From positions 1 to 64,000 of IMG/VR virus record IMGVR_UViG_3300009610_000008: a stretch of 64,000 bases of DNA. One strand, written 5' to 3'. The DNA is from a virus. Under the pieces are notes generated by a model. The model was not told the origin of the DNA and made no database searches. It was given only the letters and a program-made list of their open reading frames with translations. Position numbers and translations under genes: made by a program. Shown piece by piece: positions 1-64,000 of the stretch. Each line of letters opens with the position of its first letter. The stretch's first letter is position 1.

Positions 1-128
1 CTGCACCGGGTACTCTGTGCCTTGTGCTGCCACCCTACCTTCACTGACCAGTGGGGTGGGCAGGAGTGTGGTTGTGGCAAGATCAGCCACGACTAGGCAA
101 TAGGCTAACCAACAAAGGAGAACACAAC

Positions 129-302: not shown

Positions 303-339
303 TAGACAGTAGCAAGGTAGACAAAGGAGAACCAATCAC

Positions 340-6093: not shown

Positions 6094-6316
6094 TGGTTCA
6101 CCACAATGCGAACACCGGTGGACAATCGACCACCTCAGCGGGGAACGTGAACGTTGTAGTAGTCCCGCCACCCACTACTGCGCGAATTGCGACAAAGCCC
6201 TCTGTCTCACCGACGTGCTGGTGTGCGGGGACTTTGGTTTCAATGGTGGTTGCGACGCCAAGTTGGGAGGTCGACCACTGTTGCCCCCGCCTGCGGGGCG
6301 GTTGGTGACTAACTGA
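6086..6316 (+). CDS. Putative zinc-finger protein
   Basis: From a TTG overlapping the peptidase stop by 8 bases, this frame gives 76 residues with CEH, CSS, HYCANCDKALC and further Cys spaced like one or two zinc sites. No Shine-Dalgarno is seen, so translation would be coupled. The frame is open further upstream, but that part overlaps the peptidase. It ends Leu-Val-Thr-Asn-stop inside a one-mismatch palindrome copy (6301-6313). Confidence 0.5.
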   Translation: MPDGSPQCEHRWTIDHLSGERERCSSPATHYCANCDKALCLTDVLVCGDFGFNGGCDAKLGGRPLLPPPAGRLVTN

Positions 6317-6599: not shown

Positions 6600-6624
6600 C
6601 AATCAAGGAGAACAGTTAACTCGT

Positions 6625-7857: not shown

Positions 7858-7887
7858 CCCACAGTAGCCCACAGTAGACAACAGTTC

Positions 7888-7975
7888 CCCTGGTCATGGC
7901 CTACACGTCCCCCCTGGGGACTACAGCGTGGCCAGGGTAACGCCGGGTGGTAGGGACGGCATACTTGCCACCCGG
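7888..7975 (+). other. Structured leader with GTCCCC hairpin
   Basis: CCCTGGTCAT (7888-7897) pairs with GTGGCCAGGG (7928-7937), 10 bp including two G-U, and encloses GTCCCC/GGGGAC (7907-7912/7916-7921). A second stem CCGGGTGG/CCACCCGG follows. The inner hairpin and its flanks (ACAC...ACTAC) recur at 13330-13350, so this is a repeated RNA motif rather than random pairing. A palindrome variant (7978) and the start motif GGAGAACCAATC (7995) follow. Confidence 0.55.
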
Positions 7976-8006
7976 TAGTTAGTGACCAACAACTGGAGAA
8001 CCAATC

Positions 8007-9287
8007 ATGGCATTACGTTTCCGCCCACACGAATCCCTATCATCCATCACCCGTGTCTTGCGCCAGTACCTCCATCTCCCTGACCCCCAGGTGTTGTATG
8101 TCGTACTTGGCACAGTCGCAGGTAACCATCTCCCTGGCCCACCCATCTGGACAATGTTAATCGGTGGCCCCAGTGCCGGTGGCTCGACACTCATCAATGC
8201 CTTACTTGGCTACACTGACGAGGAGAGTGGTGAACATCTCGTCACCCCAGTTAGACATACATACGGTCTCGACAGTGTCAAGGGTGAGGCCGCATTCTTA
8301 TCTGGTACACCCAAGCGGGACAAGGCCAAGGATGCGACAGGTGGTGTACTGAAACAGATCGAACGCGCTGGCGGCAATGGCCTACTGGTCATGAGTGATT
8401 TCACCAACATCCTCAACCTCAGGCCAGAACAACTCAACGAGGTGGTGGCCTGCCTGCGTATGATTTATGATGGCAAGTTCTACCGCGCCGTGGGCACTGA
8501 TGGTGCTCGAATGTTACAGTGGCAGGGCAAGGTTGGGTGTATCACTAAATCCACTGGTGCCATTGAATCCCATCACGGTGTCATGGGTGAGATGGGCCAA
8601 CGGTTTATTATGTGGAGGTATACGACAACCTGGGGCCACAGTGAGAACCTCAAGGCATTGGCGGTACGTAGTAAACGTGACATGGCTATCGACATTGCCC
8701 GCGCCGTAAGTGACCACCTCAATCGCACACTGGACATTGTCGACAAGGGTGATACACCGTTTGAACTGGAGGTGTACGAGAACCAGTGGACAAACTTTGC
8801 CGCCCAGTTTATATGCAGAGCACGCAGTATCATCCGCCGCGACAAGTTCAAGAGCGACATTGTCGAGTTCGTCCCACCCCCCGAAGGTCCAATGAGACTA
8901 TCACAGGAGTTCAAGTCCCTGTTCCTGGGGATGCAGGCCGCTGGCGTGGATGATAGTGATGCCCACCGTGCCTTGAATGCCATGCTATGGGGGTCGATGC
9001 AAAGTGTCCGTGGTCTCACATTGCAAGTGATGCTGTCCATCCTGCGTGACAAGGGCGCACCCACCGCGAAACATAGCTTCAACAGTGAGGAGATAGACAA
9101 GGGGATGGATGTGCAGTTCGAGGCTATGGGTTACCGCATGACTAGCCCCACGACGATACATCGCACTATGGATGACATTGAACATCTCGGTCTCATACGA
9201 CGCACTGCCGGGAGACGGGGTAAGAAGTTGGAATGGAAACTTGCCGACGACACCGCCGAGTTGTGCAAGGGATTACGCATACTGTAG
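8007..9287 (+). CDS. P-loop-like ATPase with C-terminal winged helix
   Basis: This 426-residue protein resembles the ATPase module found in phage primase/helicase-like proteins: a P-loop region GGPSAGGSTLINALLG (about 53-68), then LVMSDFTNILNL (Walker B-like) and a sensor-like region. The usual P-loop Lys is replaced by Gly (AGGST rather than GKST), so ATP hydrolysis is doubtful. The last 70 residues (TIHRTMDDIEHLGLIRRTAGRRGKK) look like a winged helix. It lies between ParB-like and DinG-like genes, consistent with replication. The start motif GGAGAACCAATC directly abuts the ATG. Confidence 0.6.
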   Translation: MALRFRPHESLSSITRVLRQYLHLPDPQVLYVVLGTVAGNHLPGPPIWTMLIGGPSAGGSTLINALLGYTDEESGEHLVTPVRHTYGLDSVKGEAAFLSGTPKRDKAKDATGGVLKQIERAGGNGLLVMSDFTNILNLRPEQLNEVVACLRMIYDGKFYRAVGTDGARMLQWQGKVGCITKSTGAIESHHGVMGEMGQRFIMWRYTTTWGHSENLKALAVRSKRDMAIDIARAVSDHLNRTLDIVDKGDTPFELEVYENQWTNFAAQFICRARSIIRRDKFKSDIVEFVPPPEGPMRLSQEFKSLFLGMQAAGVDDSDAHRALNAMLWGSMQSVRGLTLQVMLSILRDKGAPTAKHSFNSEEIDKGMDVQFEAMGYRMTSPTTIHRTMDDIEHLGLIRRTAGRRGKKLEWKLADDTAELCKGLRIL

Positions 9288-9303: not shown

Positions 9304-9966
9304 ATGACAATCAATCGAGACGAAGTACCAACAGTGGCAGAGCAAGTGTCCTCGCTGGAGAATGGGTATGCTGACCTGCTGTTGGAGAACAAGGCTCTTG
9401 GTGAGTCGATCCAGTTACTAACCAAGCAGGTGCATGAACTGGAGGATCAACAGGCGATCACGCGGCAGGCATACCAGAACCTACTGGCTGAGAAGGATGG
9501 CACTATCGCTGGGCTGGACGCCATTGTCGCCGAGAAGAACGCAGAGATCAAAGCCTGTCATGAGACGATCAGGCACAGCAACGAGACGATCAAGGGATTA
9601 GACGCGGCACTGGCCCAGGCGCGGGAATGCAATGCTCGGCTCGACCACCAGTTGGAACAGCAGGGTCGCCGCACGGCCACCAGTGTACGCATCGAGGGGT
9701 GGGATAAGCAGGACAACATGGTGAGGGCGAACAGCAGTACCTGCGACTGTGACCACCCAGGCCCGTTCGACAGCAACAACCACTGCGTCAAGTGTGGGCG
9801 CAAGTACAACGCACCCAACCCTGGCCTCAAGTTTGGCGAGATCCAATTGGCCAAGCGCATCTACCATAACATCCACTACCCGGCGATACGGGCATTGCTT
9901 GGGTACGAGACGTGCCGCATACTGGACATCGTGCTGGACCTGGACCAGCCGGGGGTTAGTGACTAA
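9304..9966 (+). CDS. Coiled-coil protein with C-terminal zinc ribbon
   Basis: Residues about 10-125 form a long amphipathic coiled coil, followed by a zinc ribbon CDC-(16)-CVKC (about 146-170) and a compact C-terminal helix region; the total is 220 residues. This fits an oligomeric scaffold or loader, but no family is recognised. ATG 9304 has GGAG at proper spacing, whereas ATG 9295 lies too close to it. It ends Val-Ser-Asp-stop encoded by a perfect palindrome. Confidence 0.65.
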   Translation: MTINRDEVPTVAEQVSSLENGYADLLLENKALGESIQLLTKQVHELEDQQAITRQAYQNLLAEKDGTIAGLDAIVAEKNAEIKACHETIRHSNETIKGLDAALAQARECNARLDHQLEQQGRRTATSVRIEGWDKQDNMVRANSSTCDCDHPGPFDSNNHCVKCGRKYNAPNPGLKFGEIQLAKRIYHNIHYPAIRALLGYETCRILDIVLDLDQPGVSD

Positions 9967-19061: not shown

Positions 19062-20531
19062 ATGGCAGTAGACTTTTGGCCGTATTTGACACGCGGTGTC
19101 GGTGGTAGGTGTAACCAGTGCATCTCCCGTCTCGACCACACCCAGGTGTCGCATGTCGTACCCCCATGTGGGCCAAGTGATGCTGAAGTAATATGCATTG
19201 GTGAGGCCCCCGGCGGACAGGAACGTGATGAGCCATTCCAAGGCAATGCCGGGATGGAGTTGGACAACCACTACCTGCCACTGGCTAAGTTGGATCGCAG
19301 TGAGGTGTACATCACCAACGTCTGTAAGTGCCGCCCACCGTCGAACCGCACCCCCAATGCCAGGGAGATCGACGCATGTAGCAGGCACTTCCTGGCACGG
19401 GAGTTGGACAGACTGTCACCACGGCTTGTTGTACTGATGGGCGGTACAGCCAGTTCAATCATTGATGGCGACCCAATAGACCTGGAGAGTGATCATGGAC
19501 GATTGTATAGAGGTACGATACTGGGTCGGGGACCCTACGACATCTTCACCACATATCATCCGGCGCTGGGCCTCCACATCCCAGTACACATCGGCAACAT
19601 CGAAGACGACTTTCGCAGTATCGAGTCGTTCCTCAGGGGGAGGTACACGGAGCCGGTTGACGAATGGGAAGGTGAGGAAGAGTATGTCTACTGGCATGAG
19701 TGGGGCAAGCAGCTATATCCATCGCGCCCAGTATTCATAGACAGCGAGAGTGAGTATGGACAATTGTACTCATGGCAGTGTACACAGTTACCAGGCATGG
19801 GGGTGATGGCTAAGGAGTATGGGGCAACGTCGCATGAGATAGATGATATGAGACGGCACCTGCAACACATTGTCAATACATGTACCACACTGGTGATGCA
19901 GAACGCCATCGTGGAAGTGGCGGCCTTTCGACAGTTGGGTATCCACGTCGACTGGGCCAAGGTGATTGACACCATGCAGATTGCGTATCGCCGGGGGATG
20001 CCCCAAGGGTTGAAGCCATTGGCACGTCGCCACTGTGGCATGAAGATGCAAAGTTACCTGGAGGTGACGAATAGAGCTAGTAAACGTAAAGTACAACAGT
20101 GGATTGTGGATGTTGTCGACCATCTCCCCGACTTAGTCACTAACCGCATTAGTGAGAAGACCGGCAAGTATCTCAAACCCAAACGTTCATCCAACCCAAT
20201 GGTCGCGGTACTGGATGGGATGTTGCGATCCATGACCACCAATCCCAAATATGATCCGTGGAAACGCTGGAGGGAACATCGCGAGGAGTTACCCAGTGCC
20301 GCCACCCCAGCGGCGATTGAGACGAAACGTAAGCAGTGGTATTGGCGGGAGTGGCTACTAGACCATGTTGGCAGTGATATGCCACAGCGGGGGTTACGTC
20401 ACGTGGAGCCATCCATTGCCAAGTGGTATGCGGTACGTGACGCCGATGCCACCTGCCGGGTGTACTATACGATTGGCAAAGACCTGGATAGTCTATGGAA
20501 AGTGAGAGAGTATGACTGGAACAACCGATAG
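19062..20531 (+). CDS. Family-4-type uracil-DNA glycosylase fused to 3'-5' exonuclease
   Basis: The N-terminal ~190 residues carry a family 4 UDG pattern: CNQC (17-20), VICIGEAPGGQERDEPFQG (about 43-61), TNVCKCRPPSNRTPNAREID and a fourth Cys, plausible Fe-S ligands, then YHPAL. From about 220 on it looks like the DnaQ-type exonuclease of PolA: FIDSES (DxE), LVMQNAIVEVAAF, VIDTMQIAYR and a final YAVRDADAT matching YxxxD. No polymerase domain follows; that is a separate gene at 22746. The SPO1 polymerase has a UDG-like domain fused to PolA, so this looks like a split version. Confidence 0.75.
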   Translation: MAVDFWPYLTRGVGGRCNQCISRLDHTQVSHVVPPCGPSDAEVICIGEAPGGQERDEPFQGNAGMELDNHYLPLAKLDRSEVYITNVCKCRPPSNRTPNAREIDACSRHFLARELDRLSPRLVVLMGGTASSIIDGDPIDLESDHGRLYRGTILGRGPYDIFTTYHPALGLHIPVHIGNIEDDFRSIESFLRGRYTEPVDEWEGEEEYVYWHEWGKQLYPSRPVFIDSESEYGQLYSWQCTQLPGMGVMAKEYGATSHEIDDMRRHLQHIVNTCTTLVMQNAIVEVAAFRQLGIHVDWAKVIDTMQIAYRRGMPQGLKPLARRHCGMKMQSYLEVTNRASKRKVQQWIVDVVDHLPDLVTNRISEKTGKYLKPKRSSNPMVAVLDGMLRSMTTNPKYDPWKRWREHREELPSAATPAAIETKRKQWYWREWLLDHVGSDMPQRGLRHVEPSIAKWYAVRDADATCRVYYTIGKDLDSLWKVREYDWNNR

Positions 20532-20790: not shown

Positions 20791-20829
20791 TACAGTTAAG
20801 TAGTTGATTCTAAAGGAGAACTAATCACA

Positions 20830-21606: not shown

Positions 21607-21885
21607 ATGATGAGCAAAACGTGGTCTGGCACGGAAGACATGGACGATGATTTGAATGGAGAACCAATCATGAACGACGAAGAGATATTGAACCGTATGC
21701 GCGAGGCCATCGCCTGCCTGGAGGAAGCCACCTTCGCCATACCCATTGAGGACCGGCAACAGTCTAAGTTGCGTAACCGCATCCAGGACGCCTACTGCCG
21801 GTTGGTGGAGGCACGCGAGGAGATGAGTGTACGTATTACAGTACAGGACAACGCCCGTAAGGCCATCGAAAGGATGTCACGATGA
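21607..21885 (+). CDS. Hypothetical helical protein with two in-frame starts
   Basis: The long form has 92 residues and starts behind AAGGAGAACAACC; an ATG 63 bases later (21670) is in frame and preceded exactly by the genome's best start motif, GGAGAACCAATC, giving a 71-residue form. Both could be made. The common part is helical and acidic (NDEEILNRMREAIACLEEATF). It overlaps the macro-domain gene by 4 bases (ATGATGA). Family unknown. Confidence 0.65.
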   Translation: MMSKTWSGTEDMDDDLNGEPIMNDEEILNRMREAIACLEEATFAIPIEDRQQSKLRNRIQDAYCRLVEAREEMSVRITVQDNARKAIERMSR

Positions 21886-22542: not shown

Positions 22543-22737
22543 ATGCCCATTAAGCGATTCATGCTGTTCGCCTACGACGCCTTCTACCCCAGCGGCGGGT
22601 GGAGTGACTTCCGTGGGTCATTCAATACTCTCGACGAGGCTGTCGCCGCCTGGGTGGCACTACACCGGGAACGCCTGCTCGACTACTACCAGATTGTTGA
22701 CCTGCACACTGGTGAGGAGATTGAGGTTAGGGGTTAG
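22543..22737 (+). CDS. Hypothetical protein, 64 aa
   Basis: This short protein (MPIKRFMLFAYDAFYPSGGW) is aromatic-rich and carries a helix EAVAAWVALHRERLLDY. It may be a small phage protein of the type that follows YDxFYPSGGWxDF, seen commonly but not characterised. RBS AAGAGGTAACC is present. Its stop TAG is the beginning of a perfect palindrome. Confidence 0.6.
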   Translation: MPIKRFMLFAYDAFYPSGGWSDFRGSFNTLDEAVAAWVALHRERLLDYYQIVDLHTGEEIEVRG

Positions 22738-22745
22738 TGACTAAC
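22733..22745. repeat. GTTAGTSACTAAC palindrome
   Basis: Perfect copy between the stop of the 22543 gene and the polymerase ATG. Confidence 0.85.
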
Positions 22746-24263
22746 ATGTACATCCCATCACGAGTACGACACCCGTCGTTCACCAACACCCAGGCCCTCG
22801 ACCGCTTGCCCATGCCCACCATCGAGGACATGATGAACCTCGGCGTGGCCATCGACGTCCCCTACCTTGCCACCCTCGCCGAGGAAATGCGTGATATGAT
22901 GGAGACACTCTCTGCCAAGGTTAGACGACGGGTTCCGGCTGACAAGCTGGCTGAGTTTCTCGGCGCTGATGATGACACCGTTGACGCCGAGAATAGTGGG
23001 GAGGTGACCTCCTGGTCACAGGTGGGGCAACCAGAGTCATTCCTGGGACGCTTTAAAATCACCTCCCCCGAACAGATCGCCTGGTTTTTATTTGACAACC
23101 TGGGCATTGGCAAGGGACGACAGTTAGTCACTACCCCAGATGGCAGTAGGATAAGCACTGGTAAAAAGCAGTTAGAGGCACTCAAGTCTGAGCATGAAGC
23201 GATCCAGGAGATTCTTGCGTTTAGGGAAGTACACAAACTCTACACCACCTACGTCGTCAAACTCCCCCGCATTGCCCGACACCATCCTAAGGGCCGCCAT
23301 TGCCCTGTATGTGGTCATACTCATCGTGAGCCTAGTGATCGAGTACATTCGACAATAGTAGCCACCAGGACCGACACTGGTCGCTTGGCAGGACGACGGC
23401 CCAACCTCATGAACATCGCTGTACGCAGTCCACTAGGCGCGAGGGTACGTGCGGGATTCATCCCCAGCCATGGCATGTCCCTGGTCAGCGCAGACTACAG
23501 CCAGATTGAACTACGTATCCTCGCCAGTGAGAGTGCCGACCCGTTCATGATGAGGTGTTTCCTCGATGGCCGCGACATACACGCGGAGTCCACCCTGGAA
23601 GCGATGGGCATTCGTGACAAGGTAGGGTTTGATCCCAAGTCCAAGGCGATCTATCCACTCACCCCCGGTGCCGCCATCCCCACCATTCAGGAGTTCATGA
23701 CAATGAGGGCAGGGATGAAGAACGCCAACTTTGGCATAGTCTATGGGATTACGTGGATGGGACTCCAGGCTCAACTTGTACTGATAGGTATCTATTGGAG
23801 TAAGGAACAGACAATCGCCTTTATCGAGGAGACATGGCACAAGGTGTTCATGTCCATCCGGCCCTATATGCGTGAGCAGGAGTATCGGGCCAGGAAGTAT
23901 GGGTTCGTCTGGGACCTGATGGGAAGTATCCGGTACATCCACGGCATACGCAGTGCTGTCAAACGAGTCGTCGCCGAGAGTGTCCGCCAAGCTGGTAACA
24001 TGCCCATCCAAAGTGCCGGTTCCGCTTTCCTCAAGATCGCCATGTGGACGTTACGTGGAGTGTACGACAAGTTTAGGGCGGCGGGATATGAGGTGAACTT
24101 TCTTATGCCGGTTCATGACGAGATTGTAAGTGAATGTGACACAGCCATCGCTGAGGAACTCAAGGTTGCCACTGTCAAGTGTATGGCGGATGTCAACCAG
24201 TACACCCAACTGCTGGTACCAGTCATGGCTGAGGGCAAGGTAACCAGTAGATGGACCAAGTGA
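22746..24263 (+). CDS. DNA polymerase I (family A) polymerase domain
   Basis: The protein of about 505 residues has palm/finger motifs A (SADYSQIELRILA, about 248-260), B (RAGMKNANFGIVYG, about 324-337, with Arg, Lys and Tyr in place) and C (PVHDEI, about 460-465). Residues about 180-200 include a CPVCGHTH zinc knuckle not usual in PolA. There is no 3'-5' exonuclease domain; that activity appears to be supplied by the UDG-exonuclease protein. The ATG follows a palindrome directly; a GTG inside the palindrome (22737) is an alternative start. Confidence 0.85.
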   Translation: MYIPSRVRHPSFTNTQALDRLPMPTIEDMMNLGVAIDVPYLATLAEEMRDMMETLSAKVRRRVPADKLAEFLGADDDTVDAENSGEVTSWSQVGQPESFLGRFKITSPEQIAWFLFDNLGIGKGRQLVTTPDGSRISTGKKQLEALKSEHEAIQEILAFREVHKLYTTYVVKLPRIARHHPKGRHCPVCGHTHREPSDRVHSTIVATRTDTGRLAGRRPNLMNIAVRSPLGARVRAGFIPSHGMSLVSADYSQIELRILASESADPFMMRCFLDGRDIHAESTLEAMGIRDKVGFDPKSKAIYPLTPGAAIPTIQEFMTMRAGMKNANFGIVYGITWMGLQAQLVLIGIYWSKEQTIAFIEETWHKVFMSIRPYMREQEYRARKYGFVWDLMGSIRYIHGIRSAVKRVVAESVRQAGNMPIQSAGSAFLKIAMWTLRGVYDKFRAAGYEVNFLMPVHDEIVSECDTAIAEELKVATVKCMADVNQYTQLLVPVMAEGKVTSRWTK

Positions 24264-57180: not shown

Positions 57181-57248
57181 GGAGGAGTATACACTATTAC
57201 ACTATTACACGGAGTAGACACTATTACACGGAGTAGACACTATTACAC
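57181..57248 (-). repeat. 19-bp tandem repeat
   Basis: GGAGTAGACACTATTACAC occurs twice without gap (57211-57229, 57230-57248), preceded by a degenerate copy from 57181. It covers the stop of the upstream gene and the leader of the next one on the minus strand. Possibly a slippage product or a binding site. Confidence 0.6.
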
Positions 57249-57782
57249 GCTGAAACCGGCGGCTTTTAGTTCTGCGTTGCGTTGCTGGAAGGCGGCGGCG
57301 TCACCGTCCTTGTCGTAGTCGAATGCCCACCACCCGGCACTGTACACTTCATACAAGCTGGAGCCGTTAGTGACTAACAGCCAGAACTGTGGGACAGTGA
57401 CGTAGCCATCTGGGGTCGGGGCGTAGATGTCGAATATCAACTGCGGCCAGTAGTTCCTGGCCCACTGTAGTACTGCGTCTGCCGTCTCGGGGGTGCAGTA
57501 GTCAACTGGGTTAAGGGGGTAGACGGGACGTTCAAAGCTGTAGCCTAAATTCACACTCCAGGGCCGCTCAAATGTCGATGGACCCACTGGTTGGAGGTTG
57601 TTGACATAGTAGATGCACTTGGTCACCGGGCTGTAGAGGTAACCGGGCATGGCGCGGACGAGGATTTTGGATAGGTCGATGGCGCGGGCGACAGCCTGCT
57701 GGTTGGGGGCAACGCCCTGAGGACCGGGTGCCGCAGGCACAGTAACAGTAGATGGTGTAGATGGCGTAGATGAGGTAGACAT
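57243..57782 (-). CDS. First gene of the late operon, hypothetical, 179 aa
   Basis: After a Ser/Thr/Pro-rich 25 residues, the protein has Tyr/Trp-rich alternating segments (PGYLYSPVTKCIYYVNNLQP; WARNYWPQLIFDIYAP). Its start follows CCAGGAGAACCACATAGTCC, a variant of the start motif. A perfect palindrome inside is read as Leu-Val-Thr-Asn. As the promoter-proximal gene it should be made early in the late phase; function unknown. Confidence 0.55.
   Translation of the reverse strand: MSTSSTPSTPSTVTVPAAPGPQGVAPNQQAVARAIDLSKILVRAMPGYLYSPVTKCIYYVNNLQPVGPSTFERPWSVNLGYSFERPVYPLNPVDYCTPETADAVLQWARNYWPQLIFDIYAPTPDGYVTVPQFWLLVTNGSSLYEVYSAGWWAFDYDKDGDAAAFQQRNAELKAAGFSV
57366..57378. repeat. GTTAGTSACTAAC palindrome
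   Basis: Perfect copy inside the first late gene, Leu-Val-Thr-Asn. Confidence 0.85.
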
Positions 57783-57829
57783 GGACTATGTGGTTCTCCT
57801 GGGGTAGTGGTCAACAGTGGTCAACATAA

Positions 57830-57929
57830 CCATGCGCCCAGCGGTGGGACAAGGGAGGAAGGTGGGGGAGAACCAATCACTGAACCACCCCACCCCACTA
57901 CTCCCCTGTAACCACTACTGGACGCATGG
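57830..57929 (-). ncRNA. Structured late leader with antisense copy of start motif
   Basis: On the minus transcript, CCATGCGTCCAG (57929-57918) pairs with CTGGGCGCATGG (57841-57830), 12 bp with one G-U, and inside it GGTGGGG/CCCCACC (7 bp). The inner loop region contains GTGATTGGTTCTCC (57880-57867), the exact complement of GGAGAACCAATCAC, which precedes genes at 340 and 62409 and, in part, several others. Whether it acts in trans is untested. Confidence 0.5.
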
Positions 57930-57975
57930 CCTGCTCGTATGGCATCAACGTGACTAGAACAACACTACACTATAT

Positions 57976-58005
57976 ATGGTAGCAGATGTTGACGTGGCGT
58001 GTCAA
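57976..58005 (-). promoter_or_regulatory. Late operon promoter overlapped by 17-bp operator
   Basis: On the minus strand TTGACA (58005-58000), an 18-bp spacer and TACCAT (57981-57976) form a promoter. The dyad TTGACACGCCACGTCAA (58005-57989) over the -35 differs from the one at 6339-6355 in a single central base, so one protein probably controls both. The leader to the first gene is about 185 bases. Confidence 0.65.
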
Positions 58006-58116
58006 GTAGTGGGTGGAGTGACTAACTTTTTAATCCTTGACAAATGCGACATCCTGTGGTACGCGCGTGCGCGCCCGTTTCCTTTATATGTTTCATTTCA
58101 ACTTTTCACCAGCGTT

Positions 58117-58782
58117 TCATTTCAACGTTGCGCCAAACTTCGCATCCATCCGTTGTTTGACCAGTGGCAGTGCCTTGTACAGGGGGAGGTAGTCGCCGGT
58201 GGTGGGGTCGCGCCACGTGTCGGGCTTGATACCTACCCGCCATCCCGCTTGGTGCATGACGACGCGCCAGTCGATGATGCGATGCATTGACAGGTAGAGG
58301 GTCAGGTCATGGATGGTGGTCATCAGGACGTTGTTGGGGAGTTGGAATGACGGGAGTTCACCACTAGACATTAACAGGGCGGCACTGCGGGGAGTGATGT
58401 TGAGAATAGTGGCTACTGACTCAGTGTCGATGAACACCGCATTGAGCACATCACTTAGCCCACCGTGGACCGGCACATCCCACCAGTCGATTGGCAGGTT
58501 GTGCTTTGTGGCCAAGCGGTGGCGGTATTGGATGGCTTGGGAGTAGCGGCACATTTGGGCGAAGTATCGACGCCAGCTGGGGGGTAGTGGTTCCACTGGG
58601 GGTAGTGGTCGGACGGCTGCGGCCAACACTGGCGCACTGGCTAGGATCTCGTCACGTGTGAGGCCGATGTCGTCGCGCATCGCTTGAGGTAACTTGTACC
58701 TGCGTGACACCAGGGTGCGGTTGCGGCGTGGTTGGGTTGGCTTGGCCTTTGGGGTGCCATTGACAGTGATGGTCCTAGCCAT
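58117..58782 (-). CDS. Excisionase-like HTH protein
   Basis: This 221-residue protein has a basic N-terminus and, at about 115-155, SVATILNITPRSAALLMSSGELPSFQLPNN, the pattern of HTH_17/excisionase-type winged helices. It lies directly after the HTH gene (8-base overlap) and integrase, which fits a recombination directionality factor or a regulator. Residues 60-100 carry a Trp/Tyr-rich helical region of unknown role. Confidence 0.5.
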   Translation of the reverse strand: MARTITVNGTPKAKPTQPRRNRTLVSRRYKLPQAMRDDIGLTRDEILASAPVLAAAVRPLPPVEPLPPSWRRYFAQMCRYSQAIQYRHRLATKHNLPIDWWDVPVHGGLSDVLNAVFIDTESVATILNITPRSAALLMSSGELPSFQLPNNVLMTTIHDLTLYLSMHRIIDWRVVMHQAGWRVGIKPDTWRDPTTGDYLPLYKALPLVKQRMDAKFGATLK

Positions 58783-59149
58783 TGCGGGTCACCCCCAGCG
58801 AGATATTTAATTTACAGGTTCTGGCGATGGCGGCAAGGGTGGTGATGGTAGGGAGACGGCCACGCAGGTAGATGTTGCGGATGGTTTGTTCATTCACACC
58901 ACTACGCTTGGCGAGGGTCGCTATCGAGCGGTTCGGCACGGTGTCGAGACAGGTATTGATGAATTGCTTTATGTCGTCGCGCAGCAAGCCAGTGTGTGGA
59001 GATCCAGGCGCGGTAGTGCGGCGTGGTGATGGTTTCGTTGGTGGTCTCACTGGTGGTGGTGATGGTGATGGGTGGTTGTGGGTACGCAGTGGTGGGGGTG
59101 CGAGGGGTGTTAGTTTCATATCCAAATATCTCCTTATAGAGTGAATCAA
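58775..59149 (-). CDS. XRE-like repressor overlapping integrase end
   Basis: The HTH is at the C-terminus: SIATLAKRSGVNEQTIRNIYLRGRLPTITTLAAIA. The first 50 residues are Pro-rich and overlap the integrase gene by 248 bases in another frame, so the real start may be the TTG at about residue 56 (giving about 69 residues). There is no clear RBS. It could be an immunity repressor or an integrase regulator; a fusion by frameshift with the integrase is another reading. Confidence 0.5.
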   Translation of the reverse strand: MIHSIRRYLDMKLTPLAPPPLRTHNHPSPSPPPVRPPTKPSPRRTTAPGSPHTGLLRDDIKQFINTCLDTVPNRSIATLAKRSGVNEQTIRNIYLRGRLPTITTLAAIARTCKLNISLGVTRNG

Positions 59150-59837
59150 TCTGCGGCTGGACGCCAGCGAGTTCTACTGATAGGGTGCGGTGGGCACGAA
59201 TGGTGGCTGGGAGTGATAGTCCATATACCTCTGGCCATTTGGTGGCGAGACTCATGGCAAACGCGGGTGACATGATGGTGCCATCCATGTTGAGGAATAG
59301 ATAACTACTCGCACGTCGTCGGCCCTGGCCACGTTTTAAGTTGTAACGACGGGTAGCGACGAGCTTGTCAATGTAACTCCACGCCCACTGGGTGTAACAC
59401 CCCAATCGTTTGTAGAGGTCGCGTATTTCCTCCAGGCGGCCGATGTTTAGGGTCGATGCGTCGGCGGGACGGATGCCCAAACCAAGGGCAAACATGAACA
59501 GGGCGTTGCGCCGAATAGTGGAATATCTCATCCGCCGGTCGATCCCGGACAGGGCATGTTCGAGACGGGCACGGGATAGAGATGAGAGTTGGGGTGTGGT
59601 TGGGGAACGGGAGAAGGACCATAAGTCGGCAAATTGCTCGGGAGTAACTAACCCGCGACTTTTGAGCCATAATGCCAACTTCCTCACCACTTGCCGTAGG
59701 GCGCGTTGATCATCGTGGGGTAGTGTGGTGGACCCGGTGGCTAGATTTGTTGCGTTGTAGGTACCGCCAAGGTCCAGCAATGCCCTAACCCCATGATGGT
59801 GGGGGGTGAGGCCGATGATGTCGGGGTCAATTGTCAT
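58902..59837 (-). CDS. Tyrosine-recombinase-like integrase
   Basis: The 311-residue protein has an N-terminal SAM-like helical part (DDQRALRQVVRKLALWLK), then the catalytic-domain pattern: GLGIRPADASTLNIGRL (Arg of box I, about 125), a basic hairpin region (RRRASSYLFLNMDG), LPATIRAHRTLSVELAG (box II, Arg present, His degenerate) and IFGYETNTPRTPTTAY (possible nucleophile Tyr). The last ~60 residues overlap the HTH gene. Box II is atypical, so activity is uncertain. No attachment site was identified. Confidence 0.55.
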   Translation of the reverse strand: MTIDPDIIGLTPHHHGVRALLDLGGTYNATNLATGSTTLPHDDQRALRQVVRKLALWLKSRGLVTPEQFADLWSFSRSPTTPQLSSLSRARLEHALSGIDRRMRYSTIRRNALFMFALGLGIRPADASTLNIGRLEEIRDLYKRLGCYTQWAWSYIDKLVATRRYNLKRGQGRRRASSYLFLNMDGTIMSPAFAMSLATKWPEVYGLSLPATIRAHRTLSVELAGVQPQIDSLYKEIFGYETNTPRTPTTAYPQPPITITTTSETTNETITTPHYRAWISTHWLAARRHKAIHQYLSRHRAEPLDSDPRQA

Positions 59838-59855
59838 TTTGTCAAAACCGGAAAA

Positions 59856-59900
59856 ACACAGTACTGTGTGTCTTATATTTCTTCAAAGTATATACTGTGT
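59856..59900 (-). promoter_or_regulatory. Operator-like palindrome upstream of integrase
   Basis: ACACAGTACTGTGT (59856-59869) is a perfect 14-bp palindrome; its right half TACTGTGT recurs at 59893-59900, 31 bp away, next to GTATATAC which could be part of a -10 (TATACT on the minus strand). Two half-sites three turns apart in front of the integrase suggest a repressor-controlled promoter. Confidence 0.5.
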
Positions 59901-60103
59901 ATTACTGGATTTGAGACGATGTATATGAAAACATTGGGGTTAGGTGCGATTTTGAAATGTTTTGAATTGGGGCAAATGGACGGTTTGGGCCGACGTTGGC
60001 GCAGGACGTAAAAATGACCATTCCGTGTAGGGGAGTACGTGGGATGGTGGAAAATGGTCGTCCTGGGTCAATTGTGTGGGTTTTCGCCATATATTCGCCC
60101 CTT

Positions 60104-60116
60104 GTTAGTCACTAAC
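60104..60116. repeat. GTTAGTSACTAAC palindrome
   Basis: Perfect copy downstream of the leaderless gene, 18 bp from the next copy. Confidence 0.85.
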
Positions 60117-60121
60117 CGCCC

Positions 60122-60134
60122 GTTAGTCACTAAC
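60122..60134. repeat. GTTAGTSACTAAC palindrome
   Basis: Perfect copy over the stop of the leaderless gene. Confidence 0.85.
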
Positions 60135-60371
60135 TTTCGACATAATTTCCCGTATTTGCGCCATAATCTGGTCCGGGGTCAGCATCCGCGCCCTCGATTT
60201 TGCCACTAATGTACGAATTTGCTGTATTGCCCACAACTTCTGGTCCACTTTTGGCCGTTTCCCCAACTTATTGTAGTCAACGTTCATCCAGATGCCATAT
60301 TTTGGCTCTGGTGTCGGGTTCACTGTCACCTCGTAGCCTGCAATCCACGGTTTCAGCGGTATTTTTGCCAT
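60123..60371 (-). CDS. Small leaderless-gene product, 82 aa
   Basis: The protein (MAKIPLKPWIAGYEVTVNPT ... QKLWAIQQIRTLVAKSRARM) is basic and mixed beta/alpha with a helical C-terminus; no family is recognised, but size and charge suit a regulator. A -10 TATAAT ends 6 bases before the ATG, so the mRNA should start at the A of ATG. It ends Val-Ser-Asp-stop, encoded by a perfect palindrome (60122-60134), with another palindrome 5 bases further on. Confidence 0.65.
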   Translation of the reverse strand: MAKIPLKPWIAGYEVTVNPTPEPKYGIWMNVDYNKLGKRPKVDQKLWAIQQIRTLVAKSRARMLTPDQIMAQIREIMSKVSD

Positions 60372-60377
60372 GTTTCC

Positions 60378-60412
60378 ATTATACCATATTTAATTATGGT
60401 GGCAAACGTTTG
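60378..60412 (-). promoter_or_regulatory. Strong promoter of leaderless gene
   Basis: On the minus strand TTGCCA (60405-60400), 16-bp spacer, TATAAT (60383-60378). A 10-bp palindrome CAAACGTTTG (60403-60412) overlaps the -35 and could be an operator. Transcription start coincides with the start codon at 60371. Confidence 0.75.
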
Positions 60413-60810
60413 AAAATTGGTCTCGTTCAGAATCCCGTATGGGACCCAGTGGCCCCGCCCCCTGGCCACGTCGGGGTGGTGGTGGTCACCCCATGTGAGG
60501 GTATCGCCGTGTCCCGTATGGGGGTATCGACAGGCAGTACGTACCAAGAAACGGCCGATGTCAACGTCGTCCACATTAGAGAATGCGATTTTGTGGCGTC
60601 CTTTATATAAGGTTTGCCCCCATTATTGCCCAATTGTCGAAATAGCCTAGGATCATCCGGTAGACATTGGCACGTACCTTGGGACGGTGGCAGAATCAGC
60701 CGCGCTAAATTGATCCTAGGCGCAATGACGGCATATGTGGACGTTGTCAACTTTCGAGCATTTTTGACCGCGCTATATAAAGGTTGCGCTGGCCGCACTG
60801 GCCGCTAATC

Positions 60811-60823
60811 GTTAGTCACTAAC
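60811..60823. repeat. GTTAGTSACTAAC palindrome
   Basis: Perfect copy in the divergent non-coding region. Confidence 0.85.
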
Positions 60824-60973
60824 CTATAGCTATCGCTTATGGGGTATCGCTGGCCGCTATGACACTGTCTATAGGATGTTGCGCTACCACATGCGAAATG
60901 ATCAATTAAGTACCCCCCGCTACAACATATTGTCTTCATTACACTTGCCAGTACCGCCTATTGGACGTCGATG

Positions 60974-61001
60974 TTGACACTGTCCACAATAATACTTTAT
61001 T
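60974..61001 (+). promoter_or_regulatory. Possible plus-strand promoter for ncRNA/early operon
   Basis: TTGACA (60974-60979) with a 16-bp spacer and TTTATT (60996-61001). The -35 is perfect, the -10 is moderate. It is the best-looking plus-strand promoter upstream of the structured region and the early genes, so transcription would include the whole structured stretch. Confidence 0.4.
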
Positions 61002-61079
61002 TGCCTTGTTATCATACACTTACGATGGGTACTGAATTATTTGTTTTACATCTCTAAAAAATTATGGTTAGATAGTTAT

Positions 61080-61815
61080 GTCAGTTCGATGTTTGATAGC
61101 TTAACGGTTCGATGGCGCGGGGGGACGCAAGTCCCGCGTAAGGCGCGATTGAGACCGCGGGAAACGGTCCCGCGTTAGGCTAATTTGGCTGATAGATCTT
61201 TGACATATTCGACGTATCAAGCGAGAATCCAAACGGGCGTTAGCTAGGTAACCTAGCCATAGTCAATACGCAACCATGTGGGAGTAAGGCGGACGGTAGT
61301 CAATCCGTTGTCGGTCTAGTTAGGTCTCGTAGGCCACCTTGTAGGGCGGTACGTTTAGGAGCGACTGCGGAAAACGTCACGTGAACTGTCGAGACGATAG
61401 TTTAGAGACGCGACGGTCGCAAAGGTTAAATGACATAAGCTAGTCGACGATACGTGTGTCCGAAACTCTAGCTGGTAGGCGTGGAATTAGTATATCTCCC
61501 ATCCATAGCCCTAGCAATGACGGCGCGGCATACGTTGTCCCTAACAATTCCAGCGTATTGGTATGACCACTGGTAGGCGCGTCGATGCTTGAGCGAACGG
61601 TCAGTGGTAAAACGATTTAGTGGCCTAGGGTGCGTCCGCCGATACACCCATGGTTTCACAACATAGACAATACCGCCTGACGGTTAGTCACTAACGAACA
61701 GAACGCGATAACTCCGCGAGAGTTGCGTCCCTGCGACGGTGGCTAGGCATGTCGGGCGGTACGGCTATGGCGATATAGATGCTATAAGTGTATCTGTACC
61801 GCCATAGCCGTCCTG
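61080..61815 (+). ncRNA. Candidate large structured RNA or long early leader
   Basis: About 735 bases without a plausible gene contain closely packed hairpins: GGGAC-GCAA-GTCCC with GNRA loop (61122-61135), CGCGGGA/TCCCGCG (61156-61174), GCTAGG/CCTAGC (61243-61257), GCGACTG/CGGTCGC (61361-61420) enclosing AACTGTCG-AGA-CGATAGTT (61384-61402), ACCACTG/CAGTGGT (61566-61608), GGGTG/CACCC, ACGC-AACTC/GAGTT-GCGT (61703-61728) and a 12-bp stem ACGGCTATGGCG/CGCCATAGCCGT (61761-61811). It resembles in size and setting the large ornate phage RNAs (GOLLD, ROOL), but I cannot match it to either. Strand is inferred from the early operon. Confidence 0.5.
61683..61695. repeat. GTTAGTSACTAAC palindrome
   Basis: Perfect copy within the structured RNA candidate; the last one before the early genes. 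Confidence 0.85.
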
Positions 61816-61851
61816 GTATACAGGGAATGCGCTATTGGAGAATCAATCACA

Positions 61852-62280
61852 ATGGCTATCAATTTCGTTCAGAAGACCAATGGCTCCGCCAAGGTTGCGA
61901 CAGTACCGTCAGCAGTCCCGCCGATGGACATCTCGGCTCTCATCGCTGCTGCCGTGGCCGACGCCATGGCCAAGGTAATGGCACCGTCCCACGTGGCCGC
62001 ACCCAAAGCCCAAGCTGTCGATCCGGCCATGGTTGCCGAGATTGCACGCCTGAAGGCTGAGAATGCCAAACTTGCCGCAGCCAAGCCCGTCGCCAAGGTC
62101 AAGCGCCCATTGGTTTTCAAGGTCTCGGAGAAACGCGCCATGTCCATCTACAACCTGGGCGCTCGGTTTCCCGTCACGCTGTACAAAGAGCAGATGTTGG
62201 CCTTACTCGATGCCGAGAAGGACATCCGCGCCTTCCTCAAAGACAACGACGCCCTACTAGCCAACAAGGGCGATAACTAG
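61852..62280 (+). CDS. First early gene, hypothetical, 142 aa
   Basis: An Ala-rich helical N-terminal half (ISALIAAAVADAMAKVMAPS), a coiled-coil AEIARLKAENAKLAAAKP (about 63-80) and a basic C-terminal domain (KRPLVFKVSEKRAMSIYNLG) suggest a DNA- or RNA-binding oligomer. The C-terminal half resembles no family I can name. The start box GGAGAATCAATCACA precedes the ATG, 37 bases after the large 12-bp hairpin. Confidence 0.65.
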   Translation: MAINFVQKTNGSAKVATVPSAVPPMDISALIAAAVADAMAKVMAPSHVAAPKAQAVDPAMVAEIARLKAENAKLAAAKPVAKVKRPLVFKVSEKRAMSIYNLGARFPVTLYKEQMLALLDAEKDIRAFLKDNDALLANKGDN

Positions 62281-62324
62281 TACCATCTAGCGGCCTGGGG
62301 TAGAGCCGGAATCTACCCTCACGA

Positions 62325-62359
62325 TTAGGCCATACACGGGAGAACTGTGTGTGGCCTAA
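62325..62359 (+). other. 13-bp hairpin with GGGAGAACT loop
   Basis: TTAGGCCATACAC (62325-62337) pairs with GTGTGTGGCCTAA (62347-62359) with one G-U. The 9-base loop GGGAGAACT presents the core of the start motif and is complementary over 8 bases to the late leader at 57873-57866. A second hairpin GGGTAGA/TCTACCC lies just upstream. Confidence 0.5.
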
Positions 62360-62408
62360 CCGTGTTTTGGATGACTAGTCCATCACGGTAGTAGGAGAAC
62401 CAATCACC

Positions 62409-62573
62409 ATGTCCATGTTCCAAGTCATGTTCACGCCCGTCAAGGGTGTCGCTGTCCTAGCCACGACTCCGCTAGGTGCCCGTCGCAAGGCGGAACGCAT
62501 CTACTACCGCGAAGGCAAGGCTATCAGTGTCGATCCTATCCCGCAGGATAGCGATTGGACCAACGAGGACTAA
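62409..62573 (+). CDS. Small early protein, 54 aa
   Basis: This short basic-then-acidic protein (MSMFQVMFTPVKGVAVLATT, ending QDSDWTNED) is preceded by the exact box GGAGAACCAATCAC plus one base. No family is recognised. The beta-strand-rich start and helical middle (GARRKAERIYYREG) look like a folded small protein. Confidence 0.65.
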   Translation: MSMFQVMFTPVKGVAVLATTPLGARRKAERIYYREGKAISVDPIPQDSDWTNED

Positions 62574-62585
62574 GCTAGCTACACC

Positions 62586-62619
62586 GCCGACAGGCCCACC
62601 AATCACACGGCCTGTCGGC
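62586..62619 (+). other. 10-bp perfect hairpin between early genes
   Basis: GCCGACAGGC (62586-62595) and GCCTGTCGGC (62610-62619) form a perfect stem; a weaker GTTCGCT/AGTGAAC hairpin follows before the next RBS. No U-tract, so an RNase III-type processing site is more likely than a terminator. Confidence 0.5.
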
Positions 62620-62666
62620 GTCATAGTTCGCTTGACCTAACGAGTGAACACAGGAGAACTGTATCT

Positions 62667-62927
62667 ATGAAACTACTCGTGTCCCTTATCCTGGCTGCTG
62701 GCCTGTGCCTTGCCGAGCCTGTCTACTTCACCAAATCTGGCAAGAAGTTCCACAAGGCCACCAAGTGTGGGCAGATGACGCCCGACAAGGCCATGACGGC
62801 TGATCGCACAGAGGCTACGTCACATGGCCTGTCCCAGTGTGGGCGCTGCTACCGTGTCACGACAGGTAAGTCCAGTGGCAGCGACAAATCGTGGGCCAAG
62901 CCAGTAACGCCCACACCCGCCAAGTAG
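62667..62927 (+). CDS. Secreted small protein with three-Cys metal-site motif
   Basis: The signal peptide MKLLVSLILAAGLCLAE is followed by YFTKSGKKFHKATKCGQM and SHGLSQCGRCY, which together give the HxxxxC...CxxC pattern seen in small exported Zn-binding modules (the fold found after thermonuclease or ComEA domains). The tail is Pro/Lys-rich. An exported protein among early genes may alter the host envelope, for example to exclude superinfection. RBS GGAGAAC. Confidence 0.65.
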   Translation: MKLLVSLILAAGLCLAEPVYFTKSGKKFHKATKCGQMTPDKAMTADRTEATSHGLSQCGRCYRVTTGKSSGSDKSWAKPVTPTPAK

Positions 62928-62943
62928 GCGGACAGCTAGTAGG

Positions 62944-62973
62944 CAGGGCGAATGCGACAATCGTATCGCCCTG
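62944..62973 (+). other. Hairpin between early genes
   Basis: CAGGGCGA (62944-62951)/TCGCCCTG (62966-62973) is a perfect 8-bp stem, extended by CGA/TCG pairs in the loop; CTGGG/CCCAG hairpin follows at about 62986-63000. Confidence 0.5.
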
Positions 62974-63028
62974 GCCCGTTAGCTGGGTTAACCCCAGTGA
63001 TATCAACAACTTAGGAGAGAACCAATCC

Positions 63029-63316
63029 ATGCGATACTTCAACTCGCTCATCCGGGCCATGGCCTACGCGACAGTCGCCACCTATGCCTTGTACACAGTA
63101 GGCGACATGCATACCAAGCATCTCGCGGTCGAACTGGCCGACATCCAGGCCAAGGCCGACCAAGTACGGTACGACAGTGAGTTTGCCGTGACCCTCGGTG
63201 GCTGCGCAACCGACACCGAGTGTGCCATGGCGGAAGCCGCTGCTGTCAAGGCTGTGGCTAAAGAGCGTAGCCTGGGTAGCAACGGTGGTGGCGGACGGCT
63301 AATGGCTGGACGATAG
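63029..63316 (+). CDS. Early membrane-anchored protein, 95 aa
   Basis: The N-terminus (FNSLIRAMAYATVATYALYT, about 4-23) is a membrane anchor or signal; the rest is a helix-rich acidic domain with two Cys (GGCATDTECAMAEA) and a Gly-rich end. An in-frame upstream extension lacks a start site; AGGAGAGAACCAATCC precedes this ATG. Function unknown. Confidence 0.6.
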   Translation: MRYFNSLIRAMAYATVATYALYTVGDMHTKHLAVELADIQAKADQVRYDSEFAVTLGGCATDTECAMAEAAAVKAVAKERSLGSNGGGGRLMAGR

Positions 63317-63328
63317 ACTGCTAGGATT

Positions 63329-63360
63329 CACGGTCAATGCCTTACCGGGTAGTGACCGTG
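63329..63360 (+). other. Hairpin between early genes
   Basis: CACGGTCA (63329-63336)/TGACCGTG (63353-63360) is a perfect 8-bp stem; a GTTGGC/GTCAAC hairpin follows before GGAGAACTAGACT. Confidence 0.5.
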
Positions 63361-63405
63361 TCCCTTAGTTGGCTGACGTCAACGACATGCAAGGAGAACT
63401 AGACT

Positions 63406-63888
63406 ATGACAATGCAACAGGCCGCTCAACAGGCCATCGACATACAGGACGCCTGTAACCTGTCGGGTGTGGTGTACAGTTTCGCTCGGGTAATGGACAC
63501 GCTCTGTGCCAACACCACGGCCACCCGTGACAGGAATAGCCATCCCATCGTGACGATGTTTCTGCTCAAGCTGTGTGAACTCAATGGCTGCGGCAGTACC
63601 CTGCACGAGACCTATGAGGCGGCAGAGAAGGCGTGCCATGAACTGGCGCAGTCAACTGGGGATGGGCATCACCACTACGAGGTTGTAGTGAGCAACATTG
63701 GCCACGTCTACAACGGCATGGACCAGGGGATAGCCGAGACCAAGTACGACAGCTATGTCAAGCTCAGTGCCGCCGGGTATGGCATCACTGGGTACGAGCA
63801 TGTAACCATGCTGCGGGATGGCGACGTGGCCAAGGACTACGACGGCGGGGAACAGCGGTTGATAGACATCGAGAGCCGCATGGAGTAG
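63406..63888 (+). CDS. Hypothetical early protein, 160 aa
   Basis: The protein starts with a helix (MTMQQAAQQAIDIQDACNL), then SGVVYSFARVMDTLC and HPIVTMFLLKLCELNG, a layout that recurs in uncharacterised phage proteins, followed by a beta-rich GHHHYEVVVSN domain. Cys and His residues might bind metal, but are not in a known order. RBS GGAGAACTAGACT. Confidence 0.65.
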   Translation: MTMQQAAQQAIDIQDACNLSGVVYSFARVMDTLCANTTATRDRNSHPIVTMFLLKLCELNGCGSTLHETYEAAEKACHELAQSTGDGHHHYEVVVSNIGHVYNGMDQGIAETKYDSYVKLSAAGYGITGYEHVTMLRDGDVAKDYDGGEQRLIDIESRME

Positions 63889-63988
63889 CGTAGCGCAGAC
63901 AACTAGACAGCGCATGGGTAGTGACAGTATCCATGCTCTGGCGTAGCTGCCTGGGATACAGGGACAGTGACAAGGGAGAACTAAACAC

Positions 63989-64000
63989 ATGGATTACGGT
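63989..64000 (+). CDS. Partial gene at window end
   Basis: ATG behind AAGGGAGAACTAAACAC begins a gene (Met-Asp-Tyr-Gly) that runs out of the window. The start motif and preceding hairpin GCATGG/CCATGC match its neighbours. Nothing can be said of its function. Confidence 0.5.

Follow-up and report, generated by a model that had tools for sequence, protein, structure and literature searches.

Conserved RNA hairpins between the first rightward genes of a bacterial virus and a putative antisense loop matching their extended start box

The first rightward genes of IMG/VR virus record IMGVR_UViG_3300009610_000008 raise two questions, i.e., what the folded gaps between them do, and why the box at which several of them start runs past the Shine-Dalgarno sequence. 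We analysed bases 1-64000 of this 64917-base record (the window). Genes were called with our own simple caller, which placed 73 genes in this virus (G000), and are cited here by their lower coordinate. Rightward genes occupy 61852-64753 and 129-24263, and leftward genes occupy 24425-59837; the seven genes 61852 to 64319 are presumably early, judging by gene order alone. We propose, with a probability of about 0.55, that two RNA layers control the rightward genes: hairpins in the gaps, and an antisense loop in the leader of a leftward gene (the anti-box loop) that would pair with the extended boxes.

The five gaps that an initial annotation had delimited between 62281 and 63988 are exact in their coordinates, and all of them lie between called genes (Table 1). 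Each was said to hold a perfect hairpin of 6-13 bp. The longest perfect arms measure 8, 12, 8, 8, and 6 bp in order of position, and the share of letter shuffles (200 per gap) that reach the same arm length is 0.03, 0, 0.025, 0.04, and 0.305, respectively; the perfect arm of the 63889 gap is thus, by itself, no better than chance. The folding z-scores are -4.2 (62281), -5.9 to -6.7 (62574), -4.1 (62928), -1.6 (63317), and -1.5 (63889), and a sixth folded gap past the window end (record 64241-64318) reaches -6.2. The two weak gaps, 63317 and 63889, are strong in the related contig G005 (z = -3.8 and -5.1). With the leader of gene 61852, which holds a small hairpin (CCUG-GUAUA-CAGG) besides its long one, there are seven such elements, and folding is stronger in the sense strand than in its complement for 4 of the 7 in G000 and for 6 of the 7 in G005. 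The claim that every early gene is preceded by a hairpin fits the seven genes 61852 to 64319 and fails at genes 340, 473, and 818, which follow gaps of 45 nt or less; gene 1093 is again preceded by a folded gap.

The region of interest is kept in four lineages, all of them IMG/VR contigs: G000 (the window), G004, G005 (with the near copies G001 and L043), and L040, a locus of a 19-kb contig that was compared as a 10-kb locus. Among gaps of 50-260 nt between same-strand neighbours, the median z in G000 is -4.1 for the early gaps (n = 6), -1.1 for other rightward gaps (n = 9), and -0.9 for leftward gaps (n = 8), with -0.14 for 60 random coding stretches. The corresponding medians are -4.4 (6), -1.9 (8), and -0.1 (9) in G005 and -2.4 (7), -0.8 (9), and -1.1 (10) in G004, and L040 gives -2.0 (6) for early versus -2.6 (3) for leftward gaps. 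Values below -2.5 are found in 4/6, 6/6, 3/7, and 3/6 early gaps of G000, G005, G004, and L040, respectively, and in 3/17, 5/17, 6/19, and 2/3 of the other gaps. By rank test, the early gaps fold better than all other gaps in G000 and G005 (p = 0.002 in each) and better than the other rightward gaps alone with p = 0.013 and 0.006, respectively. Strong folding marks the early block in two lineages and does so less clearly in the others; it is not exclusive to this block, as 1010-1092, 7858-8006, and their counterparts also fold well.

Changes on both sides of a pair were counted with RNAalifold in five of the seven elements. They affect 5 of 18 pairs in the 63317 type (six copies from four lineages), 10 of 35 in the 62281 type (four sequences; shuffled mean 2.7, reached in 0 of 500 shuffles), 7 of 20 in the 62928 type (five sequences), 7 of 17 in the 64241 type (four sequences), and 6 of 34 predicted pairs in the leader 61696-61851 (four lineages). 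The structures were derived from the same alignments, which biases the percentages paired upward, and two-sided changes are the better measure. Shuffle controls covered the four gap types, with the leader outside them. For the 63317, 62281, 62928, and 64241 types, in this order, the covariation scores are 0.407, 0.352, 0.310, and 0.412 versus shuffled means of 0.252, 0.178, 0.218, and 0.195; these scores are reached by 0, 0, 1, and 0 of 500 shuffles and exceed all slid versions, and the number of pairs with two-sided changes is reached by 5, 0, 1, and 5 of 500. The two remaining elements were left out of the count: the 62574 gap has strong hairpins in G000 and G005 that are not alignable by eye, and the 63889 gap was compared by eye only, between G000 and G005. 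Because orthologous gaps keep their pairing while their letters change, five of the seven elements are, on this comparative evidence, RNA elements under selection whose pairing is conserved. The comparison with relatives that the initial annotation had proposed thus finds conserved RNA hairpins between the first rightward genes, in which changes on both sides preserve the pairing.

The 63317 and 62928 elements resemble a single motif, CUA - hairpin - UUAGYUGG - small hairpin. When the 63317 gap is modelled without its start box, the model matches G000 at 62932-63003 with 23.8 bits (filters off), compared with 12.6 bits for the next best match; under default filters, the 62928 gap is absent from the results of a 213-kb scan. 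In G005 the same model gives 17.1 bits at the leader hairpin (E = 0.009) and only 9.4 bits at the counterpart of 62928 (E = 0.8). A single motif for all gaps was considered and holds only in part, as the model misses the 62928 counterparts of G004 and L040 and the other gaps lie within the noise. Gap models that include the start box match many starts, partly through the start box alone.

Known classes of RNA element offer several readings of these hairpins. Rfam 15 gives no match at gathering score in the whole window and none at E up to 1 in L018 1000-4500. Intrinsic terminators or attenuators are the least probable of the readings considered here: the tail of hairpin 62325-62359 contains five T among eight letters, but the remaining gap hairpins have no T run by eye, and the 4.9-kb stretch holds 4 terminator-like sites versus 3.8 expected. 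Hairpins with long T runs are present by eye on the minus strand of G004 and G005, so the group has ordinary terminators elsewhere. The put sites of HK022 are two adjacent stem-loops in the early RNA, one per early operon near its start, which act in antitermination. Many gaps here likewise carry a large hairpin directly followed by a small one; however, there is one element per gene rather than one per operon, and no Rfam match, and antitermination elements of the nascent RNA are a quite improbable explanation. In T7, the early RNase III sites R0.3 to R1.3 are irregular hairpins in the leader and between the early genes, just upstream of the starts, as are the elements described here. Folded by the same method, six T7 early stretches give z = +0.9 to -4.0, and the seven elements give -1.4 to -6.7, four of them stronger than any T7 stretch. 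In contrast to T7, the virus yielded no recognisable T7-type RNA polymerase when 36 proteins, from about half of its called genes, were compared with PHROGs. The initial annotation had likened the gaps to the RNase III sites of T7; by this analogy, it is plausible that the gap hairpins are processing sites, putatively cut by RNase III, or stability sites.

The start box is an ordinary Shine-Dalgarno sequence (AAGGAGAA) that is extended by YYAATCAC before a subset of the rightward genes. The initial annotation had seen GGAGAAC(C)(AATCA) in each of the five gaps; GGAGA is present in 5/5 and GGAGAAC in 4/5, and AATC only in 2/5 (62409 and 63029), with gene 63029 carrying GGAGAGAACC instead of GGAGAAC and gene 63989 having AAACA in place of the AATC extension. 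Among the seven early genes, the AATC part is found at 61852, at 62409, and, shifted, at 63029; the spacers of the others are TAGACT, TAGACAT, TGTATCT, or TAAACAC. In G000, 37 of the 73 called starts (27 rightward and 10 leftward) have GGAG 8-18 nt upstream, and among the rightward ones AA after GGAG is strong (0.7-0.8 bit) and later positions are weak (at most 0.34 bit). The low information past AA means that the long conserved box reported by the initial annotation does stand before several genes but is the mark of a subset of starts, not a universal one. Besides five exact copies of GGAGAACCAATCA, the record has three with one mismatch and two with two, and every one of these lies on the rightward strand; with its letters in reverse order, the box has 4 matches on one strand and 1 on the other. 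At up to three mismatches the window holds 32 matches versus 15.7 expected. Three of the exact copies precede called starts (340, 8007, and 62409), one at 21658 lies inside called gene 21607 and has an ATG but no called gene after it, and the fifth, at 57867-57879, is not followed by a start codon. Longer pairing with rRNA does not explain the extension, which fails to match the complement of the 16S rRNA tail (GGAGGTGATC). Pairing of the extension with the letters just upstream of the Shine-Dalgarno sequence was rejected (85 starts; mean longest match 3.31 versus 3.30 after swapping, reached by 154 of 300 swaps). A second 12-nt copy, GAGAACCAATCA, lies inside the start of gene 340 at 351-362 and is conserved at 338-349 in G004 and at 9799-9810 in G005, possibly as a further antisense target or simply because the protein letters are conserved.

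What the extension is for is suggested by the fifth copy, which lies opposite the leader of leftward gene 57243. Read on the minus strand, this leader forms a hairpin whose 18-nt loop is identical in all four lineages, is perfectly antisense to GAGAACCAATCAC, and is the reverse complement of GAGAACCAATCACTGAAC. The inner eight stem pairs are GC GC GC UA GC GC GU GU in G000, GC GC GC GU GC UA GC AU in G004 and L040, and GC GC UA GC AU CG AU GC in G005; counted outward from the loop, 6 of the 8 pairs are changed on both sides among these three distinct stems. A loop that stays constant while its stem changes is the expected picture for an antisense or binding loop. The TTGACA of a promoter-like site is likewise identical in the four lineages, 102-120 nt upstream of the loop.

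The fit between loop and boxes was measured as contiguous pairs, with G-U allowed, from GAGA onward over 13 positions of the GGAGA boxes. The mean is 7.9 in G000 (22 boxes), 7.7 in G004 (29), 7.2 in G005 (23), and 10.3 in L040 (11). When the nine letters that follow are permuted within each box, the mean falls to approximately 5.0, and in none of the four sequences does any of 2000 permutations attain the observed value. At least 11 contiguous pairs are formed by 5/22, 7/29, 3/23, and 6/11 boxes in G000, G004, G005, and L040, respectively, all on the plus strand, and the start boxes of five G000 genes form all 13. The best predicted duplexes in G000 are those of genes 340, 62409, 8007, 20830, and 61852 (-23.2 to -18.9 kcal/mol), and when the last six bases of the loop are kept and the rest shuffled, a single loop in 200 performs as well, both in G000 and in G005. 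In the four sequences, 21 start boxes match GGAGAANNAATC, all of them rightward, with NN being CC (10), TC (6), or CT (5); C or T thus occupies 42 of 42 letters opposite two loop G, which pair with C or U. That the box is the exact complement of an unchanging loop suggests that the virus uses one loop to turn down a set of its own genes, and pairing with this loop is the likely reason for the length of the box past the Shine-Dalgarno sequence.

The box may instead be a favourable, unstructured A/C-rich spacer that was spread by duplication of start regions, with the minus-strand copy arising by chance or from a decayed start. The low information from +6 on over the plus-strand GGAG starts of G000 and the different spacers (TAGACT, TGTATCT) of several early genes agree with this view, which we nevertheless consider unlikely, given that, in its sense, the minus-strand copy lacks an ATG, GTG, or TTG at start distance, that 18 nt are invariant on a changing stem in four lineages, and that box variation is confined to C/T opposite G. 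A DNA site bound by a phage protein, to which the hairpins would be unrelated, has a precedent in cluster K mycobacteriophages, for which DNA-binding proteins were favoured to explain the inverted repeats, according to the accessible text of the paper (PMC3203893). Here, all 31 occurrences of GAGAANNAATC in three whole contigs and the 10-kb locus lie on the plus strand and none on the minus strand, a count that includes the anti-box complement (once per sequence) and copies inside genes. This strand bias, the close link to Shine-Dalgarno starts, and the G-U compatible variation point to RNA and make a DNA site highly improbable.

The main rival is a role in cis only, in which the leader hairpin would be autoregulatory and its loop would pair with the Shine-Dalgarno sequence of gene 57243, a few dozen nt downstream, the other matches following from a common style of start. 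The own box is invariant in its core in the four lineages (GGAGAACCA), which pairs over 8-9 nt; in full it reads GGAGAACCACATAG in G000 and GGAGAACCATTCAC in G004, G005, and L040, and the latter pairs at 12 of 13 positions with one U-U mismatch. At the base that separates the own box (T) from the trans boxes (A), however, the loop fits A in all four lineages, and the own box of G000 has diverged (CACATAG) with no change in the loop; these two facts favour action in trans. The trans duplexes of G005 are also stronger (five at -19.9 to -22.7 kcal/mol) than the own duplex (-17.8), which ranks sixth by energy there and lies outside the twelve best in G000. We therefore regard a cis-only role as rather unlikely and trans action of the loop as the probable one, and pairing in cis and in trans could both operate.

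Several observations weigh against control by two RNA layers. The early gaps are not significantly distinct in G004 (p = 0.09; 0.27 against rightward gaps only) or in L040 (p = 0.45, with 3 controls), and the evidence from further pair types is weak, being reached by 43, 8, 330, and 10 of 500 shuffles in the 63317, 62281, 62928, and 64241 types. The five boxes with at least 11 contiguous pairs in G000 are few for 22 GGAGA boxes and 73 called starts, and among the seven early genes two have 13 contiguous pairs and three have 9. GGUUCUC of the loop fits any GGAGAAC start, so that only about six further bases are specific. Weak internal pairs reduce the mean unpaired probability of the loop to 0.53-0.58, five of its bases (GUUCA) are accounted for by neither trans nor own-box pairing, and the loop can pair with the box of its own gene, as described above. 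Finally, the lineages are few (four, with L040 close to G004 in these elements), and the orthologous boxes and hairpins share ancestry and are not independent; the tests consequently show a match, not independence.

From the structures, their conservation, and the complementarity we infer the following course of expression, timing, processing, and repression. Early rightward transcription would yield messages in which hairpins bound each cistron and strong AAGGAGAA sites serve as starts; in this first layer, the hairpins would delimit the cistrons through nuclease processing and shield or insulate the individual messages, like the R sites of T7. When the leftward promoter near 58005 (TTGACA) fires, the leader RNA would show the anti-box loop, which would pair with the GGAGAA-YY-AATCAC boxes of about five to seven phage mRNAs and block ribosome entry. 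A start box of the form GGAGAACCAATCAC would be expected to answer to this RNA. Ribosomes would be kept off genes 61852, 62409, 340, 8007, and 20830 and, more weakly, off 63029 and 63989, and translation of the box-bearing rightward genes would be lowered while leftward transcription is on.

The two layers may also meet. The loop of hairpin 62585-62620 displays ACCAATCAC at 62598-62606, and the loop of one G004 leader hairpin holds GGAGAACTGTATCT; such loops of the early RNA might pair with the anti-box. In a wider scheme, for which we would give slightly less than even odds, one loop would read the extended Shine-Dalgarno sequence as an address tag and switch the translation of a regulon, the gap hairpins, with ACCAATCAC and elsewhere GGAGAAC in their loops, would form a second, kissing-loop layer, and the invariant leader stretch GTTGATGCCATACGAGC may reach the start of a ParB-like gene.

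Table 1. Positions of the hairpin elements, start boxes, and leader features in the window.
Feature	Position	Strand	Remarks
Leader before gene 61852	61696..61851	+	long hairpin 61761-61811, 12-bp perfect arms, 0/200 shuffles; z -4.1
Gap with three hairpins (62298-62318, 62325-62359, one near 62359-62389)	62281..62408	+	
Gap with 12-bp hairpin 62585-62620 and 9-bp hairpin	62574..62666	+	start box GGAGAACTGTATCT at 62653
Gap with irregular hairpin (perfect arms 62944-62973) and small hairpin	62928..63028	+	box GGAGAGAACCAATCC
Gap with irregular hairpin (perfect arms 63329-63360) and small hairpin	63317..63405	+	box GGAGAACTAGACT
Gap with hairpin 63912-63936 and small hairpin	63889..63988	+	box GGAGAACTAAACA at 63975
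Start box GGAGAATCAATCA of gene 61852	61837..61849	+	13 contiguous pairs with anti-box loop
Start box GGAGAACCAATCA of gene 62409	62394..62406	+	
Start box GGAGAACCAATCA of gene 340	326..338	+	
Start box GGAGAACCAATCA of gene 8007	7995..8007	+	
Start box GGAGAACTAATCA of gene 20830	20815..20827	+	
Promoter-like TTGACA-17-GAGAAT, candidate promoter of rightward genes	61200..61228	+	10/12 matches
Leftward leader with anti-box	57783-58005	-	upstream of gene 57243-57782
Anti-box hairpin	57841..57915	-	
Anti-box loop GTTCAGTGATTGGTTCTC, 18 nt	57868..57885	-	identical in G000, G004, G005, L040
Invariant 17-nt leader stretch GTTGATGCCATACGAGC	57933..57949	-	upstream of anti-box hairpin, between TTGACA and loop
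Promoter-like TTGACA-18-TACCAT of leftward leader	57976..58005	-	10/12 matches in G000
Gene behind anti-box leader, 179 aa	57243..57782	-	own start box GGAGAACCA

Several further features accompany the two leaders. Promoter-like sites such as the candidate at 61200 are found 6 times in that region versus 4.4 expected, and a like place in G004 reads TTGACA-17-ATGAAT by eye. A long noncoding leader, 61040-61851, precedes the first rightward gene; approximately its last 350 bases are kept in G004 and L040 and partly in G005, CTAACAANTCCAGCGT ... TGACCACTGGTAGGCG is common to all lineages, and the whole may be a larger structured leader RNA. On the minus strand, the -35 region of the anti-box promoter (58005-57989) holds a dyad, TTGAC-N7-GTCAA, seen by eye in four lineages, which is a possible repressor site. 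The complement of GTTGATGCCATACGAGC has matches of at least 10 nt elsewhere (3 in G000, 4 in G004, 1 in G005, and 0 in L040), which is approximately the chance level; two of them, at 6620 in G000 (11 nt; region 6615-6635) and at 6244 in G004 (10 nt), overlap the start codon of the ParB-like gene 6625. This pairing is possibly due to chance and is to be taken as a lead only. The protein of gene 57243-57782 has no Pfam or PHROG match.

An exact 108-base direct repeat is found at both record ends (window 1-108 and bases past 64000) in G000 and also in G004, and the first and last 40 bases are the same in the two; this common place suggests that the true physical ends lie within the rightward gene block. 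By Pfam and PHROG scans, the rightward arm has helicase-like, ParB-like, and DNA polymerase genes, and the leftward arm has capsid-like, tail-like, and, weakly, terminase-like genes. The DNA polymerase is seemingly split (19062-20531 and 22737-24263), with several small genes in between. The small protein of 62667-62927 has a signal-peptide-like N-terminus by eye and a cysteine-rich end that matches the C-terminal end of phrog_14556. In the window, 48 copies of the palindrome TTAGTSACTAA are present at up to one mismatch versus 0.30 expected (e.g., 60105-60115, 60123-60133, 60812-60822, and 61684-61694). It is present at 33/72 gene junctions in G000, 32/70 in G004, and 31/68 in G005, and at 0/5 of the gaps within 62281-63988; it could be an operator or stoperator-like site of the phage group, and the protein of 6625-7857 (Pfam ParB_N; PHROG ParB-like) is a candidate binder of the 48 copies.

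Relatives outside the four lineages are scarce. The phages collection has no nucleotide match for 58000-64000, hence no near relative there, and the capsid protein matches two of its records with 25 and 40% identity. Pattern scans of the viral contigs with the leader and with two gap elements each led to the same five contigs and to no others (the window's own record possibly being excluded), and in the genome contigs the capsid search and the anti-box leader pattern found nothing. Inspection of the more distant contigs L045, L046, L062, and L063 revealed no similar gaps, and the first gap model has no strong match in them. In L063, a GC-rich contig otherwise unlike the window, many starts share AACCTGGAG by eye, which is another start-associated box.

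As for boxes of this kind, the start-associated sequence (SAS) of cluster K mycobacteriophages is, in the accessible text, an asymmetric box of 13 nt that accompanies translation starts, almost always in the same orientation, contains a Shine-Dalgarno sequence, is conserved beyond it, and in about half of the cases has inverted repeats upstream (PMC3203893). These repeats (extended SAS, ESAS) are imperfect, of 17 bp, and share one consensus, and pairing in RNA was unsupported according to the authors (PMC3203893). The likeness to cluster K drawn by the initial annotation extends to position and strand and ends at sequence and structure: GGGATAGGAGCCC with at most two deviations at gene starts, the criterion for SAS in the accessible part of PMC12699233, has 2 matches in the window at up to two mismatches versus 2.0 expected, neither of them in the early block, and the hairpin arms here differ from gap to gap and, where counted, keep their pairing by two-sided changes. 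The accessible text on SAS and ESAS mentions no antisense loop (PMC3203893).

A closer counterpart of the anti-box leader is c4 of P1 and P7, whose complementary sequences are thought to lie in loops and to pair around the ribosome binding site of a phage mRNA, that of ant; sar of P22 (ant) and OOP of lambda (cII) are also phage antisense RNAs that act on phage mRNAs, with one target gene each in the accessible text (PMC12197685). As in RNAs of the c4 and sar kind, the loop described here is complementary to a ribosome site and is conserved on a covarying stem. Unlike them, one invariant loop complements an extended box shared by several genes. Sequence relation to c4 was compared only through the Rfam scan of the window, which gave no match, and a limited search of the open literature did not find one loop aimed at a start box common to several phage genes. 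The best reading of these complementarities is that the anti-box leader is a phage antisense RNA like c4 of P1 that is aimed at the shared box.

The setting is a little-known group of bacterial viruses in which the first genes are separated by conserved RNA hairpins. Since c4, sar, and OOP are each described with one target in the accessible account, a loop directed at a shared box would, if this reading is true, amount to a compact master switch made of RNA. Start-associated boxes would also gain a testable reason to exceed the Shine-Dalgarno sequence, a matter that the 2011 paper on cluster K, in its accessible text, left open.

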